NCBI RefSeq assembly: GCF_029626265.1
Contig: NZ_JARUBN010000001.1
Location: 3,782,001 to 3,846,000 of the forward strand
Direction of reading: 5' to 3'
DNA: 64,000 nt
From: Micromonospora sp. WMMD1102
GTDB taxonomy: Bacteria > Actinomycetota > Actinomycetes > Mycobacteriales > Micromonosporaceae
Position 1 is the first letter of the stretch; each line of letters opens with the position of its first letter. A program made the translations under genes and the position numbers. Of the stretch, positions 59,627 to 64,000 are shown piece by piece. The notes beneath the pieces are model-generated. The model saw only the letters and a program-made list of their open reading frames with translations. It was not told where the DNA came from and searched no databases.

Positions 59627-59710
59627 GTCCGGGTGGCGGAATGGCAGACGCGCTAGCTTGAGGTGCTAGTGCCCGTATAGGGCGTGGGGGTTCAAGTCCC
59701 CCCTCGGACA
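59627..59710 (+). tRNA. tRNA-Leu (anticodon GAG)
   Basis: Acceptor GTCCGGG pairs with CTCGGAC. The anticodon stem CTAGC/GCTAG holds the loop TTGAGGT, anticodon GAG. A long class II variable arm (GCCC...GGGC) is followed by T-arm GGGGG-TTCAAGT-CCCCC. The discriminator is A and CCA is not encoded. It reads CUC/CUU codons. It is followed by an accessory region with two tyrosine recombinases, a usual integration setting. Confidence 0.95.
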
Positions 59711-59742
59711 CAGATTTTACGCATCGGTGCGCAATCCTCGTG

Positions 59743-59770
59743 TGGGTGTTCAAGTCCCCTTGAACACCCA
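59743..59770 (+). terminator. hairpin downstream of tRNA-Leu that repeats the T-arm sequence
   Basis: Perfect 12-bp arms TGGGTGTTCAAG/CTTGAACACCCA around a 4-nt loop, 33 bp after the tRNA: a strong transcription terminator candidate. Its left part contains GTTCAAGTCCCC (59748-59759), identical to 12 nt of the tRNA T-arm (59690-59701). Confidence 0.65.
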
Positions 59771-59826
59771 GTTCACTGCATTTCATCACTGTCGGTAACC
59801 GCCGCGCAGGGGCGAAGGTGGTCGCG

Positions 59827-60300
59827 ATGACCACGTCCGTGCCGCCGGTGCTTCCCAAATCGATTCCCCGAGGTGCTACTGCCGACCCGGAGACACCGGG
59901 CCGCACTCGACAGCCACTTCCCGTGCCAGCCTCGGATGCCCAGTTCACACGAGCGACCGACACCGTCTACGCCTTGAGCGCGGTCGACAAGCGCGGTCGG
60001 ATCGGTGATCGCAGCATCGTCCAGGTACTTGGTTGGGCGCCGGGAACTCGCCTGGACATTCGCGAACGGGCCGGGATCATCATGGTCCGCGCGGCCCTCG
60101 ACGGCGTCCACCGCATCGACATTCGCGGCTACCTGGTCCTGCCGTTGGCGGTGCGTCGGTGGTGCCGGCTCACGGCCAGGGACCGGGTTCTGCTTGCCGC
60201 CGACCCCATCAACAGTGTGTTGGCGGCGCATCCCCTGGCGACGCTTGACCGGCTGCTGGCGGGCGCACACGAAGCCGTGGCAGGGGGTGAGGGGGCGTGA
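59827..60300 (+). CDS. AbrB-like double swapped-hairpin protein (recombinase partner 1)
   Basis: 157 aa from the ATG at 59827, with GAAGGTGG upstream. After a disordered 45-residue start there are two similar hairpin units: VYALSAVDKRGRIG...LDIRERAGIIMV (48-90) and HRIDIRGYLVLPLAVRRWCRLTARDRVLLAAD (95-127). The pattern resembles AbrB/MazE-type DNA-binding hairpins. It is coupled by a 4-bp overlap to a tyrosine recombinase. A homologous pair lies inverted at 61422-63109. A DNA-binding accessory factor or regulator of the recombinase is inferred. Confidence 0.75.
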   Translation: MTTSVPPVLPKSIPRGATADPETPGRTRQPLPVPASDAQFTRATDTVYALSAVDKRGRIGDRSIVQVLGWAPGTRLDIRERAGIIMVRAALDGVHRIDIRGYLVLPLAVRRWCRLTARDRVLLAADPINSVLAAHPLATLDRLLAGAHEAVAGGEGA

Positions 60301-61325
60301 GTCAGAGCATCGCCGGCCGGCCCGAGTTGGAGGCCGCCCGGCTGCTGCTTGAGCGGATGGGCATCTCCCCCGCCGATCTGCTGGAGGTACGGCCGGCCCG
60401 TCCGCCGGCTCCGACGTTCGCCGAGTACGTGCCGGTCGTCGCCGCCGCGGTGTCGCCCGGCACCCGCCGGGCGTACGGCACCTACTGGAAGAAGGTGGTG
60501 CAGGCATGGGGTGACCGCCGCATCGACGAACCTCTCCCTTCCGAGATCGAGCAATTACGCGCCCAGGTGCAGGCCAACGTGGTGGCGCGACGCAACAACC
60601 GGGGCGGGCGATCCGCGGCGGAGCACGTGGTGGCCGCGCTGCGCTGCCTGTACCGGCGGGCGGTGGCGGACGGGTATCTGGACGCGGCCGACAACCCGGC
60701 GTTGAAGGTGAGCAAGCCGCGCCGCCTGCCCAGTACACGGCGGGCGATCGGCGATGCCCGCCTGGCGGAAATCAACGAGGTGGCGATCCGCACGGGTGAT
60801 GACCCGGGGCTGGACAGTTTGCTGATCCGGCTGCACACCGAGACCGCCTGCCGCCGCGCCGGGGCGCTGGCGCTGCGCCCACGGGACCTGGACACCGACG
60901 AGTGTCTGATCTTCCTACGGGAGAAGGGCGGCACGTCCCGGTGGCAGCCGGTCTCACCGACGCTGACGCGGCACCTGCTGGCGCACCACGCGGAACGAGG
61001 TGACGGCAACCGGGACGGCAGCCTGCTGCGCTACCGCGATGGTCGGCCGCTGACCTACCGGCGGTACGACTCTCTCTGGGCGCGGATCGGGCAGCATCTG
61101 CGGTGGGTGCACACCCAGCAAATCAGTACACACTGGCTGCGGCACACCACGCTGACGTGGGTGGAGCGCACGTACGGTCATGCCGTGGCCCGCGCCTACG
61201 CGGGCCACACCGACGGCGGCGGAAGCGGCGCGACGGCCACTTATGTACGGGCGACGTTGCAGGAGGTCGCGATCGCGTTGGCTGGGTTGACCGGCGAGGA
61301 CCATCCGCTCGCCACAGAAGCGTAG
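60297..61325 (+). CDS. tyrosine recombinase/integrase (module 1)
   Basis: 342 aa, GTG start. A SAM-like core-binding domain occupies residues 40-140 (AAAVSPGTRRAYGTYWKKVV). The catalytic domain has R186 (TACRRAGALAL), K210 (REKGGTSRW), H279-x-x-R282 (THWLRHTTLTW), H304 (AYAGHTD) and nucleophile Y316 (TATYVRAT); all active-site residues are present. It lies 0.6 kb from tRNA-Leu, suggesting integration there. It is clearly homologous to the convergent recombinase at 61422. Confidence 0.9.
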   Translation: MSQSIAGRPELEAARLLLERMGISPADLLEVRPARPPAPTFAEYVPVVAAAVSPGTRRAYGTYWKKVVQAWGDRRIDEPLPSEIEQLRAQVQANVVARRNNRGGRSAAEHVVAALRCLYRRAVADGYLDAADNPALKVSKPRRLPSTRRAIGDARLAEINEVAIRTGDDPGLDSLLIRLHTETACRRAGALALRPRDLDTDECLIFLREKGGTSRWQPVSPTLTRHLLAHHAERGDGNRDGSLLRYRDGRPLTYRRYDSLWARIGQHLRWVHTQQISTHWLRHTTLTWVERTYGHAVARAYAGHTDGGGSGATATYVRATLQEVAIALAGLTGEDHPLATEA

Positions 61326-61421
61326 ATCCTCCGGTGGCCTCCCTCGATCGCACGAGGGAGGCCACCCGCTCGTCGTGAGGAACCGGCACCGCTGCAAGCC
61401 GCCAGCGAGCCGTGCGAATGG

Positions 61422-62498
61422 TCAAACGGAAGCGGAGCCGTCCGTGGCTCGACGATCGTGTGCGCTGCCCTCGGATCCGGCCAGAGGATGCGGCTCGCCG
61501 CTGAGCTGGGCCAGAGCAGCGGCAATGTCCTGGACCTCGGCGCGCACGTAGGTCATGGTCGTGCCGATATCGTTCCTGCCGCTGTGGCCGGCGTAGGCGC
61601 GGGCCACAGCGTAGCTGCAGGCGCGTTCGACCCAGGTCAGAGTGGTGTGGCGCAGCCAGTGGGTGCTGACCTGCTGTGCCGCTACCCAGGGCAGATGGGT
61701 ACCGATGCGGTGCCACAGGTGGTCGTAGCGGCGGGAGGTCAGCGGCCGGCCGTTGCGGTAGCGCAGCAAGCTGCCGTTGCGGTCGCCGTCGCCCCGCTCG
61801 GCGTGGTGGGCCCGCAGGTGCCGCATCAGGGTCGGTGAGACCGGCTGCCAGCGGGAAGTACCACCCTTCTCCTGTAGATAGATCAGGCATTGGTCTGGAT
61901 CCAGATCTCGTGGACGCAGCGCCAACGCCCCACCGCGGCGGCAGGCGGTCTCCAGGTGCAGCCGGATCAGCAGGCTGTCCAGGTGTGGGTCGTTGCCGGT
62001 GGTTGCCGCGATGTGGATGATCGCGGCCAGTTGCGCCTCTGGGATGGCGCGTCGGGTGCTGGCCAGGCGGCGGGGCTTGGCGACCTTGGCCGCAGGGTTA
62101 TCGACCTCTCGGATCAGTCCATCCATGACCGCGTGCCGGTAGAGGCAGCGCATAGCGGCTATCAGGTGTTCGGCGGCGGTACGGCCACCGCGGGCGTTGC
62201 GGCGCACGACCACCCCGCTGCGGATCTCCTCGGCGAGCCGCTTGATCTCCAACGGCGTCGGCTCGGTAATCCGCCGGGCGCCCCAGTGCTGACAGATCCG
62301 TTGCCAGTACGAGTGGTATACCCGACGGGTACCGGGCGAGACCGCCTCGGCGACCTGCCATACGTACTCGTCGAACGTCGGCACCGCCACGGGCGCTGCC
62401 GTCGTTTCGGCGAGCAGTTGTTCAGGGGTGATACCAAGCTGCTTCAGCAGGCTGCGTAGCGTCTTCAGCGCGGCGCGCAGTTCCATTGGCCCGGTCAT
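61422..62498 (-). CDS. tyrosine recombinase/integrase (module 2)
   Basis: 358 aa from the ATG at 62498, overlapping the AbrB-like gene stop by 4 bp. It has the same layout as module 1, with R187, K211, H280, R283, H305 and Y317, and shares long identical blocks (SLLIRLH, STHWLRHTTLTWVER, AHHAERGDG). The C-terminus has 20 extra residues (GSEGSAHDRRATDGSASV). It faces recombinase 1 tail to tail with 96 bp between them. Confidence 0.9.
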   Translation of the reverse strand: MTGPMELRAALKTLRSLLKQLGITPEQLLAETTAAPVAVPTFDEYVWQVAEAVSPGTRRVYHSYWQRICQHWGARRITEPTPLEIKRLAEEIRSGVVVRRNARGGRTAAEHLIAAMRCLYRHAVMDGLIREVDNPAAKVAKPRRLASTRRAIPEAQLAAIIHIAATTGNDPHLDSLLIRLHLETACRRGGALALRPRDLDPDQCLIYLQEKGGTSRWQPVSPTLMRHLRAHHAERGDGDRNGSLLRYRNGRPLTSRRYDHLWHRIGTHLPWVAAQQVSTHWLRHTTLTWVERACSYAVARAYAGHSGRNDIGTTMTYVRAEVQDIAAALAQLSGEPHPLAGSEGSAHDRRATDGSASV

Positions 62499-63109
62499 CG
62501 GCTGGCCCGGCTGTCGTCTAGCTGGCGGTAGCGGACGACCATGTCGTGCACGGCGGCCATCGGAACTACCAGCAGCTCGTCTCGTCGCGGGTTCGCGAAT
62601 AGGAGCACCCGATCTTTGGCGGCGATGCGACACGCGCGCCGTACCGTCAGGGAAAGCCGTAAATGGCCACGCGGGTTAATGCGGACTGTACGACCGGTGC
62701 GGGCCACCACAATCGAGCCGTTCGGGCCAGGCTCAATCGCCAACTCGACCGGATGTCCGGCAGCCCAACCCATAAACCTGAGCGCTGATCGATCGGCCAG
62801 CCTCCCATCGCGGTCGACGGGCGTGACCACGCAGCGGATTCCAGCGCTGTCCGCGGCGCCTGGCGGCTCGGGGATCGGCAGTCCCAGCATGGCCCGCATT
62901 CCCGGGCCCGTGCCCGGCTGCCGCAGGGAGGTCGGCCTGATGCCTTCGAACGATACGTCCCCGACATCGCGCCAAACGGTGGTCCTGTCTCTTGCCGGAG
63001 CGGTAGGGCCGAGGCCCGGGATCTGTGCTGGGTCGCTGCCGTGGCCGCAGCGGGGGACGGCACGCCGTGACCCGCCGCTCCCGACCTGTCGTGAGTCTCG
63101 GTCGGTCAT
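62495..63109 (-). CDS. AbrB-like double swapped-hairpin protein (recombinase partner 2)
   Basis: 204 aa from the ATG at 63109, with GGGAGG upstream; the open frame further upstream is not protein-like. The N-terminal 90 residues are low-complexity. The C-terminal half has two hairpin units, CVVTPVDRDGRLADRSALRF (93-112 and on) and VRINPRGHLRLSLTVRRACRIAAKDRVLLF (142-171), matching the module 1 protein. It is coupled to recombinase 2. About 260 bp upstream lies the CCAACA iteron array. Confidence 0.72.
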   Translation of the reverse strand: MTDRDSRQVGSGGSRRAVPRCGHGSDPAQIPGLGPTAPARDRTTVWRDVGDVSFEGIRPTSLRQPGTGPGMRAMLGLPIPEPPGAADSAGIRCVVTPVDRDGRLADRSALRFMGWAAGHPVELAIEPGPNGSIVVARTGRTVRINPRGHLRLSLTVRRACRIAAKDRVLLFANPRRDELLVVPMAAVHDMVVRYRQLDDSRASR

Positions 63110-63545
63110 GATGACCTCCCGGGGCTCTGCGGGCGGTCGATGTGGCAGACCCGTTCGAGCCGCCAGACGGCGATCGGGACGTCGACACCGACGAGAATGG
63201 CGTTGTCGTGCTGTCGTGCCTCGTGGTGAAACGGGTTCGGACGGGCCACGCCGTTCGGCGTGGAGCGGGGTTTTGCAGTCATGTGCGGGTGGCTCCCGCC
63301 TGACTGGCCGTGTTCGCATCTACGAATGGCCCTGCCAGCCCGGCACAGACCCCCTGTTCACGTCGCCGCTGACCCAACAGCGCCCAACACTGCGGGGTTT
63401 GTTGGGGCGCTGCCTGCCCACCCAACAGATCACGCAGACGCCCAACAGCCAGGCGGCGTCGCCCAGCACCGCGGCTGTTGGCCAGCAGTATTATTCGTTG
63501 CCAACAGCGAAAGCCTCCGCGCCGTTGACTAGCCAACGGCGGACA
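63110..63545. repeat. gene-free region with CCAACA iteron array
   Basis: Seven CCAACA motifs lie between 63373 and 63507: direct at 63374, 63384, 63422, 63442 and 63501, and inverted (TGTTGG) near 63400 and 63475. Most extend to CCCAACAG. Spacings of 10 and 20 bp occur. The inner part (63380-63411) forms an imperfect AGCGCC-CAACA inverted repeat. Such arrays are typical of binding sites for integrase arms, Rep proteins or regulators. Variants (CCAACGG, CCAACAA) recur at 63533 and at the window end. Confidence 0.7.
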
Positions 63546-63898
63546 ATGAGCGGCCAGACAGCGAGACCAGGGCAGCAATGTGGAGCCGCTCGCCGCAGGG
63601 CCCGTAAGGCCCGTGACACGGACTCCGATGCTCAACTCTTCCGCGCCGACGCGACTGGTCCGATCGCGCCCGCCGAGCCGTGGGACCACCGTGACCTGGT
63701 GCTGGCATGGGCGGGCGTGGCCGATGGCCTCGAGGCGGACGAGGCGAATCTCATCGCCACCACACGGTTGGAAGGCGTCAGCCTCGCCCTGGCGGCGCAA
63801 CGCCTTGGTATCACCGCCAGCATGGCCTCGTCTCGTCATGGCGGCTAGAGGCCGCTGGATGCGATTCACGGGGCGACCTGGCGCTCGTGTCGTTGTGA
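63546..63898 (+). pseudogene. sigma-factor region 4-like gene, frameshifted near the C-terminus
   Basis: The first frame (63546-63848) reads EPWDHRDLVLAWAGVADGLEADEANLIATTRLEGVSLALAAQRLGITASMA, resembling the sigma-70 region-4-like HTH proteins found in actinobacterial integrative elements. It then stops early. Another frame continues SSWRLEAAGCDSRGDLALVSL to a stop at 63898, as expected for the end of that family. A small indel around 63825-63840 is the likely cause. The alternative is a real short 100-aa protein. Confidence 0.5.
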
Positions 63899-64000
63899 TG
63901 TCGCCAGCACCGCCGCAGCGGTGGCGCGTTCCGGCAGCGAGAGTCGCCGCGACTCAGCAACGCGCCGCCCTAACCAACGGAAGGTGCGGCGGTCCAACAA

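Follow-up and report, generated by a model that had tools for sequence, protein, structure and literature searches.

Two AbrB-like protein-coupled tyrosine recombinase modules at the tRNA-Leu end of a probably decayed conjugative-type island in Micromonospora sp. WMMD1102

We examined a 3.9-kb locus within a stretch of 64,000 nucleotides from Micromonospora sp. WMMD1102 (G000:C1:3782001-3846000, hereafter the window; G, C and L numbers are our handles for genomes, contigs and loci). Beside a tRNA-Leu(GAG) gene, two modules, AbrB1-Int1 (59818-61325, plus strand) and Int2-AbrB2 (61422-63109, minus strand), point at each other tail to tail, each consisting of a gene for an AbrB-like protein and a gene for a tyrosine recombinase. 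An earlier reading made from the letters alone (the sequence-only reading) had described two homologous two-gene modules in this arrangement beside the tRNA, and the coordinates bear it out. In window positions, the features are:

59627..59711, plus strand: tRNA-Leu (GAG), the attachment gene
59684..59711, plus strand: attL core, the last 28 nt (3' end) of the tRNA, copied 27/28 at attR
59718..59733, plus strand: P site, TACGCATCGGTGCGCA, starting 6 nt past the attL core
59744..59769, plus strand: arm A palindrome, GGGTGTTCAA-6-TTGAACACCC, upstream of AbrB1
59818..60300, plus strand: AbrB1, predicted double-hairpin MraZ-like protein (GTG start; ATG at 59827)
60297..61325, plus strand: Int1, tyrosine recombinase of clade T1
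61326..61421: 96-bp gap between the Int1 and Int2 gene ends, containing the GGTGGCCTCCCTCG inverted repeat
61422..62498, minus strand: Int2, tyrosine recombinase of clade T2
62495..63109, minus strand: AbrB2, AbrB-like partner of Int2 (start uncertain, as the frame stays open upstream)
63106..63282, minus strand: fused remnant of a 283-aa gene that neighbours T2 in relatives (judged by eye; not among the tblastn matches listed)
63374..63506, both strands: CCAACA(G) repeats
63615..63833, plus strand: remnant of the conjugation block's helix-turn-helix gene with TQQ repeats (67% over residues 158-230)

The 4-bp overlap said to couple each AbrB-like gene to its recombinase can be read directly in both modules, as GTGA at 60297-60300 (AbrB1/Int1) and ATGA at 62498-62495 (Int2/AbrB2). 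The GGTGGCCTCCCTCG inverted repeat in the gap between the recombinase genes is likely to be a two-way terminator. Within the arm A palindrome, whose two arms vary in step in most of the relatives listed (by eye), the T-arm of the tRNA is repeated (17/18, at 59742-59759, 58 nt behind the original). The tract 63106-64000 holds CCAACA repeats and broken conjugation genes.

Int1 and Int2 are identical at 223 of 333 residues (67%), and AbrB1 and AbrB2 at 49 of 142. Both recombinases match the Phage_integrase domain (E 1e-9 and 4e-14) and carry R-K-H-R-H-Y, which identifies them as tyrosine recombinases. In a tree of 81 recombinases, with ten short or broken rows excluded and three (L017, L022 and L067_6333) partly mis-framed, clade T1 (49 rows) is separated from clade T2 with support 92/95; L017 is T1 by profile. 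The active-site Arg, Lys, His, Arg, His and Tyr are intact in both proteins and invariant across 47 aligned T1 and T2 proteins, so that the full active site claimed by the sequence-only reading, and its view of two divergent modules that have both been kept, hold. The nearest NCBIfam profile of both recombinases is XerC (49 and 59 bits against a cut-off of 335), and neither reaches the NCBIfam cut-off for XerC or XerD; a joint profile of the two retrieves XerC-like and XerD structures. Searches with Int2 on plasmids and with Int1 on phages gave no match. A structure model of Int1 (predicted local distance difference test 84.8, predicted TM-score 0.61) played no further part.

The AbrB-like proteins are less easily placed. 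As single sequences neither has a Pfam match, AbrB1 alone matching the AbrB profile below threshold (E 0.003). A profile of the family retrieves AbrB and SpoVT structures (E 0.004 to 0.04; the best match is a hypothetical protein, E 2e-4), and 37 of 76 family members match MazE_antitoxin at E <= 0.1. A structure prediction, proposed earlier as a check, gave two beta-alpha-beta-beta hairpin repeats, as in the swapped-hairpin proteins AbrB and MraZ, in agreement with the double hairpin that had been read from the sequence. The modelled fold is MraZ-like at 12% identity to MraZ (PDB 9r4j, 9sz7, 1n0e), an assignment that AbrB families outside the compared structure list may fit too; Foldseek with the AbrB1 model returned nothing at E 0.001 or better. 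An AbrB-like open reading frame (ORF) lies immediately upstream of 76 of the 81 recombinase homologues, a count in which the 50 rows labelled T1 include a few near-equal-class members, and the 4-bp overlap is present in 60 of those 76 pairs. The coupling is general across the homologues, beyond chance.

The module pair lies at the end of a genomic island. A search of the genus with the tRNA and its flanks located a copy of the tRNA 3' end at G000:C1:3925634-3925662, outside the window, and the attR core within it (28 nt, G000:C1:3925635-3925662) differs from the tRNA by one base (27/28). From attR onward, 985 bp match, at 96% identity, DNA of the sister genome G078 that directly follows an intact tRNA-Leu, i.e., an empty site. 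Because the attR core matches the tRNA and G078 shows the empty site, the island spans 3841712-3925662, about 84 kb, with the module pair as its attL end; with a direct repeat at both ends and an empty site, it is a tRNA-integrated genomic island. The direct repeat for which the sequence-only reading had advised looking to the right of the window thus exists, 84 kb away, and a scan allowing up to 6 mismatches in 26 found no core in the first 78 kb from the tRNA. That reading had also named two outcomes that would count against it, homologues that are always single modules and modules with separate att sites; instead, pairs recur, and no second 26-nt att core was found, either between the modules or over the following 78 kb. 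The cargo (19 of 63 ORFs of the stretch and edges scanned) includes lanthipeptide dehydratases, a ThiF protein and five transposases. Near attR are a Wadjet JetABCD set (type 2 models) and a pPIWI-RE set (G000:C1:3904565-3912871 and 3916334-3923151).

Relatives of Int2 occur in 155 of 300 genomes of the family. Among the matches listed, with at most seven candidates scored per genome and most near-equal rows (about 50-55% identity) and some fragments excluded, clade profiles sort 123 places into 65 T1, 43 T2, 11 near-equal and 4 found by one profile only. G061 was assigned to T1 by hand (score +19; its mis-framed row falls within T1 in the tree, and the profile also gives T1). On this basis, 58 of the 300 genomes have T1, 39 have T2 and 31 have both, T1 being present in 31 of the 39 T2 genomes versus 27 of the 261 others (Fisher p 5e-19).

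Layouts were counted by eye from the same table, each T2 being paired with the T1 of its own stretch. At least 11 family loci have T1 and T2 tail to tail on one contig (G000, G167, G120, G021, G098, G197, G022, G056, G154, G061 and G080), with G059, whose partner is cut by the contig end, as a 12th; a tail-to-tail pair in G115 is T1 with T1. Head-to-tail pairs number at least 14 (G031, G052, G064, G080, G121, G214, G227, G231, G237, G244, G252, G257, G277 and G281), always with T1 upstream of T2 and with spacing from 0.5 to over 200 kb. The mirror image seen in the window is therefore real and recurrent, but it is not the sole form (11-12 tail to tail versus 14 head to tail). No back-to-back partners within one island were found among the pairs listed. 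Two such cases lie across elements: G080 has two successive pairs, of which T1 of the former and T2 of the latter stand back to back, 257 kb apart and separated by an att core, and G167 has a broken Int piece (C23:8239), outside its island, in this orientation to T1. G120 also has a lone second T2 module (C1:1670940, L074), left unpaired, 710 kb from T1 and far from tRNA-Leu; it shares 94% identity with the paired module over 1450 bp, and the shared part is only the AbrB2-Int2 unit.

Beyond the family, 397 genomes of other families of the order yielded tail-to-tail pairs in G512, G609, G341 and G319 and head-to-tail pairs in G477, G392, G615 and G538, plus a tail-to-tail pair with a broken T2 in G311 (L190). 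Among the tail-to-tail pairs, clean T1/T2 classification was obtained for G341 and for G311 with its broken T2, one member was classified in each of G512 and G609, and G319 is unclassified. A Nocardia carnea locus (L019) holds another pair, its T1-side member being near-equal by profile. The pairing thus recurs in many actinobacteria, as the sequence-only reading had asked, and the site is tRNA-Leu(GAG). T1 and T2 distances correlate across 18 genomes (Mantel r 0.31, p 0.004; partial after rpoB, r 0.30, p 0.005), and neither follows rpoB significantly (p 0.09 and 0.28). These are 18 of the 31 genomes with both clades: 19 were listed, G154 was removed for a broken rpoB, and G229 has T1 and T2 on different contigs. 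The two clades show a signal of shared inheritance.

T2 has neighbours of its own. Upstream of it in several islands lie a 283-aa gene, a TQQ-ended helix-turn-helix gene and TrbL-, PrgI- and VirB4-like genes; within the flanks that were fetched, 8 of 31 T2 loci have the TrbL, PrgI and VirB4 genes next to T2. VirB4 accompanies T1 and T2 in 7 of the 16 genomes with both clades that were tested: the islands of G120, G021, G257, G167 and G031 contain it, G052 has it on the stretch of one contig from T1 to T2, and in G229 it neighbours T2. It was found in none of the islands of five T1-only genomes (G232, G206, G285, G224 and G179), nor in that of G115. The contrast of 7/16 with 0/5 is too small to prove a rule. 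The G000 island itself has no VirB4, the one match in the genome lying outside it (C1:6789492), and hence falls outside type IV secretion system (T4SS)-type integrative and conjugative elements (ICEs) as defined by VirB4 and other T4SS genes inside. It does keep the broken helix-turn-helix piece (63615-63833) and, beyond the window, TrbL pieces in three frames. As only remnants of the conjugation genes are present in this island, the window most likely shows part of a decayed ICE-type island.

TrwC relaxase (PF08751) occurs in the islands of only two of 14 genomes, G244 (C1:299159) and G277 (C1:4996328); neither island has VirB4, and both are possibly mobilizable members. Dense CCAACA(G) repeats on both strands lie near conjugation remnants in the window (63374-63506) and in L003 (4995-5297), with further copies beyond the window, some of them inside the TQQ-rich gene end of relatives. 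The idea that they form a universal T2 att or iteron array was rejected, as only some T2 loci have clusters of them and part of them code for TQQ repeats; they are possibly a transfer origin or operator.

The island ends carry a second pair of repeats. At attL the order is core, 6 nt and P, and at attR, read outward, core, 2 nt and the inverted partner P'. In the G000 island, P and inverted P' are alike at 11 of 16 positions. Across 22 elements, the attR register of G281b and G031 being set one base closer as their cores are without one base, P and P' agree at 12.7/16 positions within elements versus 8.1 between them (p 2e-5) and at 2.9/4 versus 1.4 of the central ones (p 2e-5); read as direct repeats, they agree less (9.5 within versus 7.5 between). 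The variable attR cores suggest that the crossover point may lie in the C-run of the core, with P and P' about equidistant from it. Two islands, in G167 and G257, are turned round, with arm A and T1 at attR and the other arm (arm B) at the tRNA; they measure 144 and 157 kb. Arm A of G167 is 81% identical over 1532 bp to that of the window and its arm B 90% over 48 bp to that of G120, while the arms of G257 were judged by eye. The linkers stay at 6 nt at the tRNA and 2 nt at attR while the arms swap, which places the breakpoint inside P. Judged from this arrangement, exchange inside P would be the simplest explanation of the turned-round islands. Arm-B-like sequence also lies at the tRNA in G125 and L016 (by eye).

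Three other elements or sites were seen along the way. At L080 (G058) the tRNA-Leu is followed by AGATTTTACGCATCGGTGCGCA and then by other DNA, a P site without a module, and G058 has no T1 or T2 match. A G281 element (L116 5115-14784, 9.6 kb), the smallest among those examined, has an att core at either end, contains T1, T2 and a transposase-like gene, and carries as cargo one 904-aa protein with a Schlafen-type helicase domain. An 18-kb element of G252 (L131) has T1 and T2 head to tail and a 2320-aa protein resembling the RHS/polymorphic-toxin type (by eye).

Taken together, the 3.9 kb are probably the left end of a decayed member of a family of T4SS-type islands in tRNA-Leu(GAG), with two recombinase modules coupled to MraZ/AbrB-like proteins. 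We likewise think it probable that among the T1/T2 islands T1 (AbrB1-Int1) sits beside the att core at arm A and T2 (Int2-AbrB2) goes with the conjugation block. Several points weigh against this. Among the matches listed, T2 is missing from 27 of 58 T1 genomes and T1 from 8 of 39 T2 genomes; the Mantel correlation is modest; tandem arrays exist at tRNA-Leu, so some pairs could be accretion; and a relaxase search with PF08751 and PF03432 found the former in 0/6 VirB4-bearing islands and the latter in no island of seven genomes. In addition, 9 of the 16 T1/T2 genomes tested, including G000, have no VirB4 in the island, the gene being either at another place or absent, and this slightly lowers our confidence.

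Within this family, Int1 would insert and excise the island at the tRNA 3' end, considering its position and the T1-only 68-kb island of G179, which has both attL and attR. The AbrB-like proteins may bind the att-proximal palindromes and control expression or direction, and Int2 may serve a second step, either excising the island ahead of transfer or carrying out an exchange at P that reverses its orientation. In the latter case, a recombinase of the pair would exchange strands at the inverted P sites and flip the whole island, placing Int1 or arm B behind the tRNA. We regard such inversion as a tentative possibility: it fits the swapped arms of G167 and G257, the fixed linkers, and P and P' that agree more within than between elements and more as inverted than as direct repeats, yet among the islands seen at both ends only these two are turned round, and the two orientations are known across species only (G000 versus G167 and G257), no single strain showing both. 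Moreover, the likeness of P and P' could reflect recognition by one protein, related elements are not independent (the P sites of G244 and G277 are identical), and the T1-only island of G179 also keeps P and P'. More doubtful is a full division of labour, in which one recombinase would insert the island at the tRNA 3' end and the other would turn it round via the inverted P sites; transcription from the tRNA promoter would then enter either the AbrB1-Int1 operon or the other arm, and this would set whether the island can move.

Int1 and Int2 might instead act jointly, one per att half-site, as a XerCD-like heteromer. The XerC and XerD likenesses of their profiles, the co-occurrence of T1 and T2 and their shared-inheritance signal would suit this, but both proteins fall short of the XerC and XerD cut-offs, T1 and T2 can be more than 100 kb apart, and an obligate heteromer is argued against because the T1-only G179 island has both att sites; we consider it unlikely. 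It is more improbable again that two elements lie side by side, the T2 module being a remnant of another element that shares the tRNA. Tandem elements do occur at tRNA-Leu (G281, G031, G236 and G080), and Fcci3390 offers a precedent for two integrases of different subfamilies in one actinobacterial element (PMC3218068, in its account of that element). Against this, no second core was found between or behind the modules in the stretches scanned; of at least 13 tail-to-tail pairs in the family, 11 (12 with G059) are T1 with T2 and one (G115) T1 with T1; T1 is upstream of T2 in all 14 head-to-tail pairs listed; and tandem integrations would not yield tail-to-tail pairs.

The usual description of an integrative element includes one integrase and a small Xis, which the sequence-only reading proposed that the AbrB-like protein might replace. 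XerC and XerD are likewise two related tyrosine recombinases kept together, but Int1 and Int2 score far below their cut-offs and lie on mobile islands with a tRNA att site. The tripartite ICEs of Mesorhizobium have three integrases, inversions and att sites in separate genes; they resemble the islands here in combining several tyrosine recombinases on one ICE with inversions, whereas the present islands have one tRNA core and inverted repeats at their ends. MraZ represses the division gene cluster; the AbrB-like protein here, in contrast, is coupled to a recombinase. Another close comparison is with T4SS-type ICEs of Actinobacteria, which are described in the section on them as chromosomal elements with an integrase and VirB4-like conjugation genes (Ghinet et al. 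2011, PMC3218068), a gene set that some islands of the present family share. One of those ICEs and the G000 island both have a lantibiotic dehydratase-like gene. They are defined there by a MOBF relaxase, however, which six VirB4-bearing islands here lack as judged by PF08751, and that section mentions no paired integrases, AbrB/MraZ-like partner or turning round. Fcci3390, an actinomycete integrative and conjugative element (AICE) covered by the same source, resembles the G000 island in having two tyrosine integrases in one element, but as presented there these belong to different subfamilies and have separate att pairs, only one of which was seen to excise; the G000 island has two related clades, and no second att core was seen. 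A literature search found no description of a two-integrase AbrB-coupled island or of its turned-round islands, in line with the sequence-only reading, which knew of no system of this form. Two-integrase elements, T4SS-type ICEs and AbrB/MraZ folds are each known; as far as the literature was searched, what is new is the two-clade set with coupled MraZ-like partners and the turned-round islands.

A widespread family with two co-occurring integrases, each with an MraZ-like partner, raises the questions of why two integrases are required and how direction is controlled. These can be tested on plasmids with the help of the 9.6-kb element of G281 and the matching P sites. As the islands carry antiphage systems and biosynthetic genes (in G000 and G281), the answers bear on the spread of defences and natural-product genes among actinobacteria. 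An orientation switch, if true, would decide whether an island can move, and the recurrent, ancient pair suggests that these islands move, or turn round, with two enzymes and not one.

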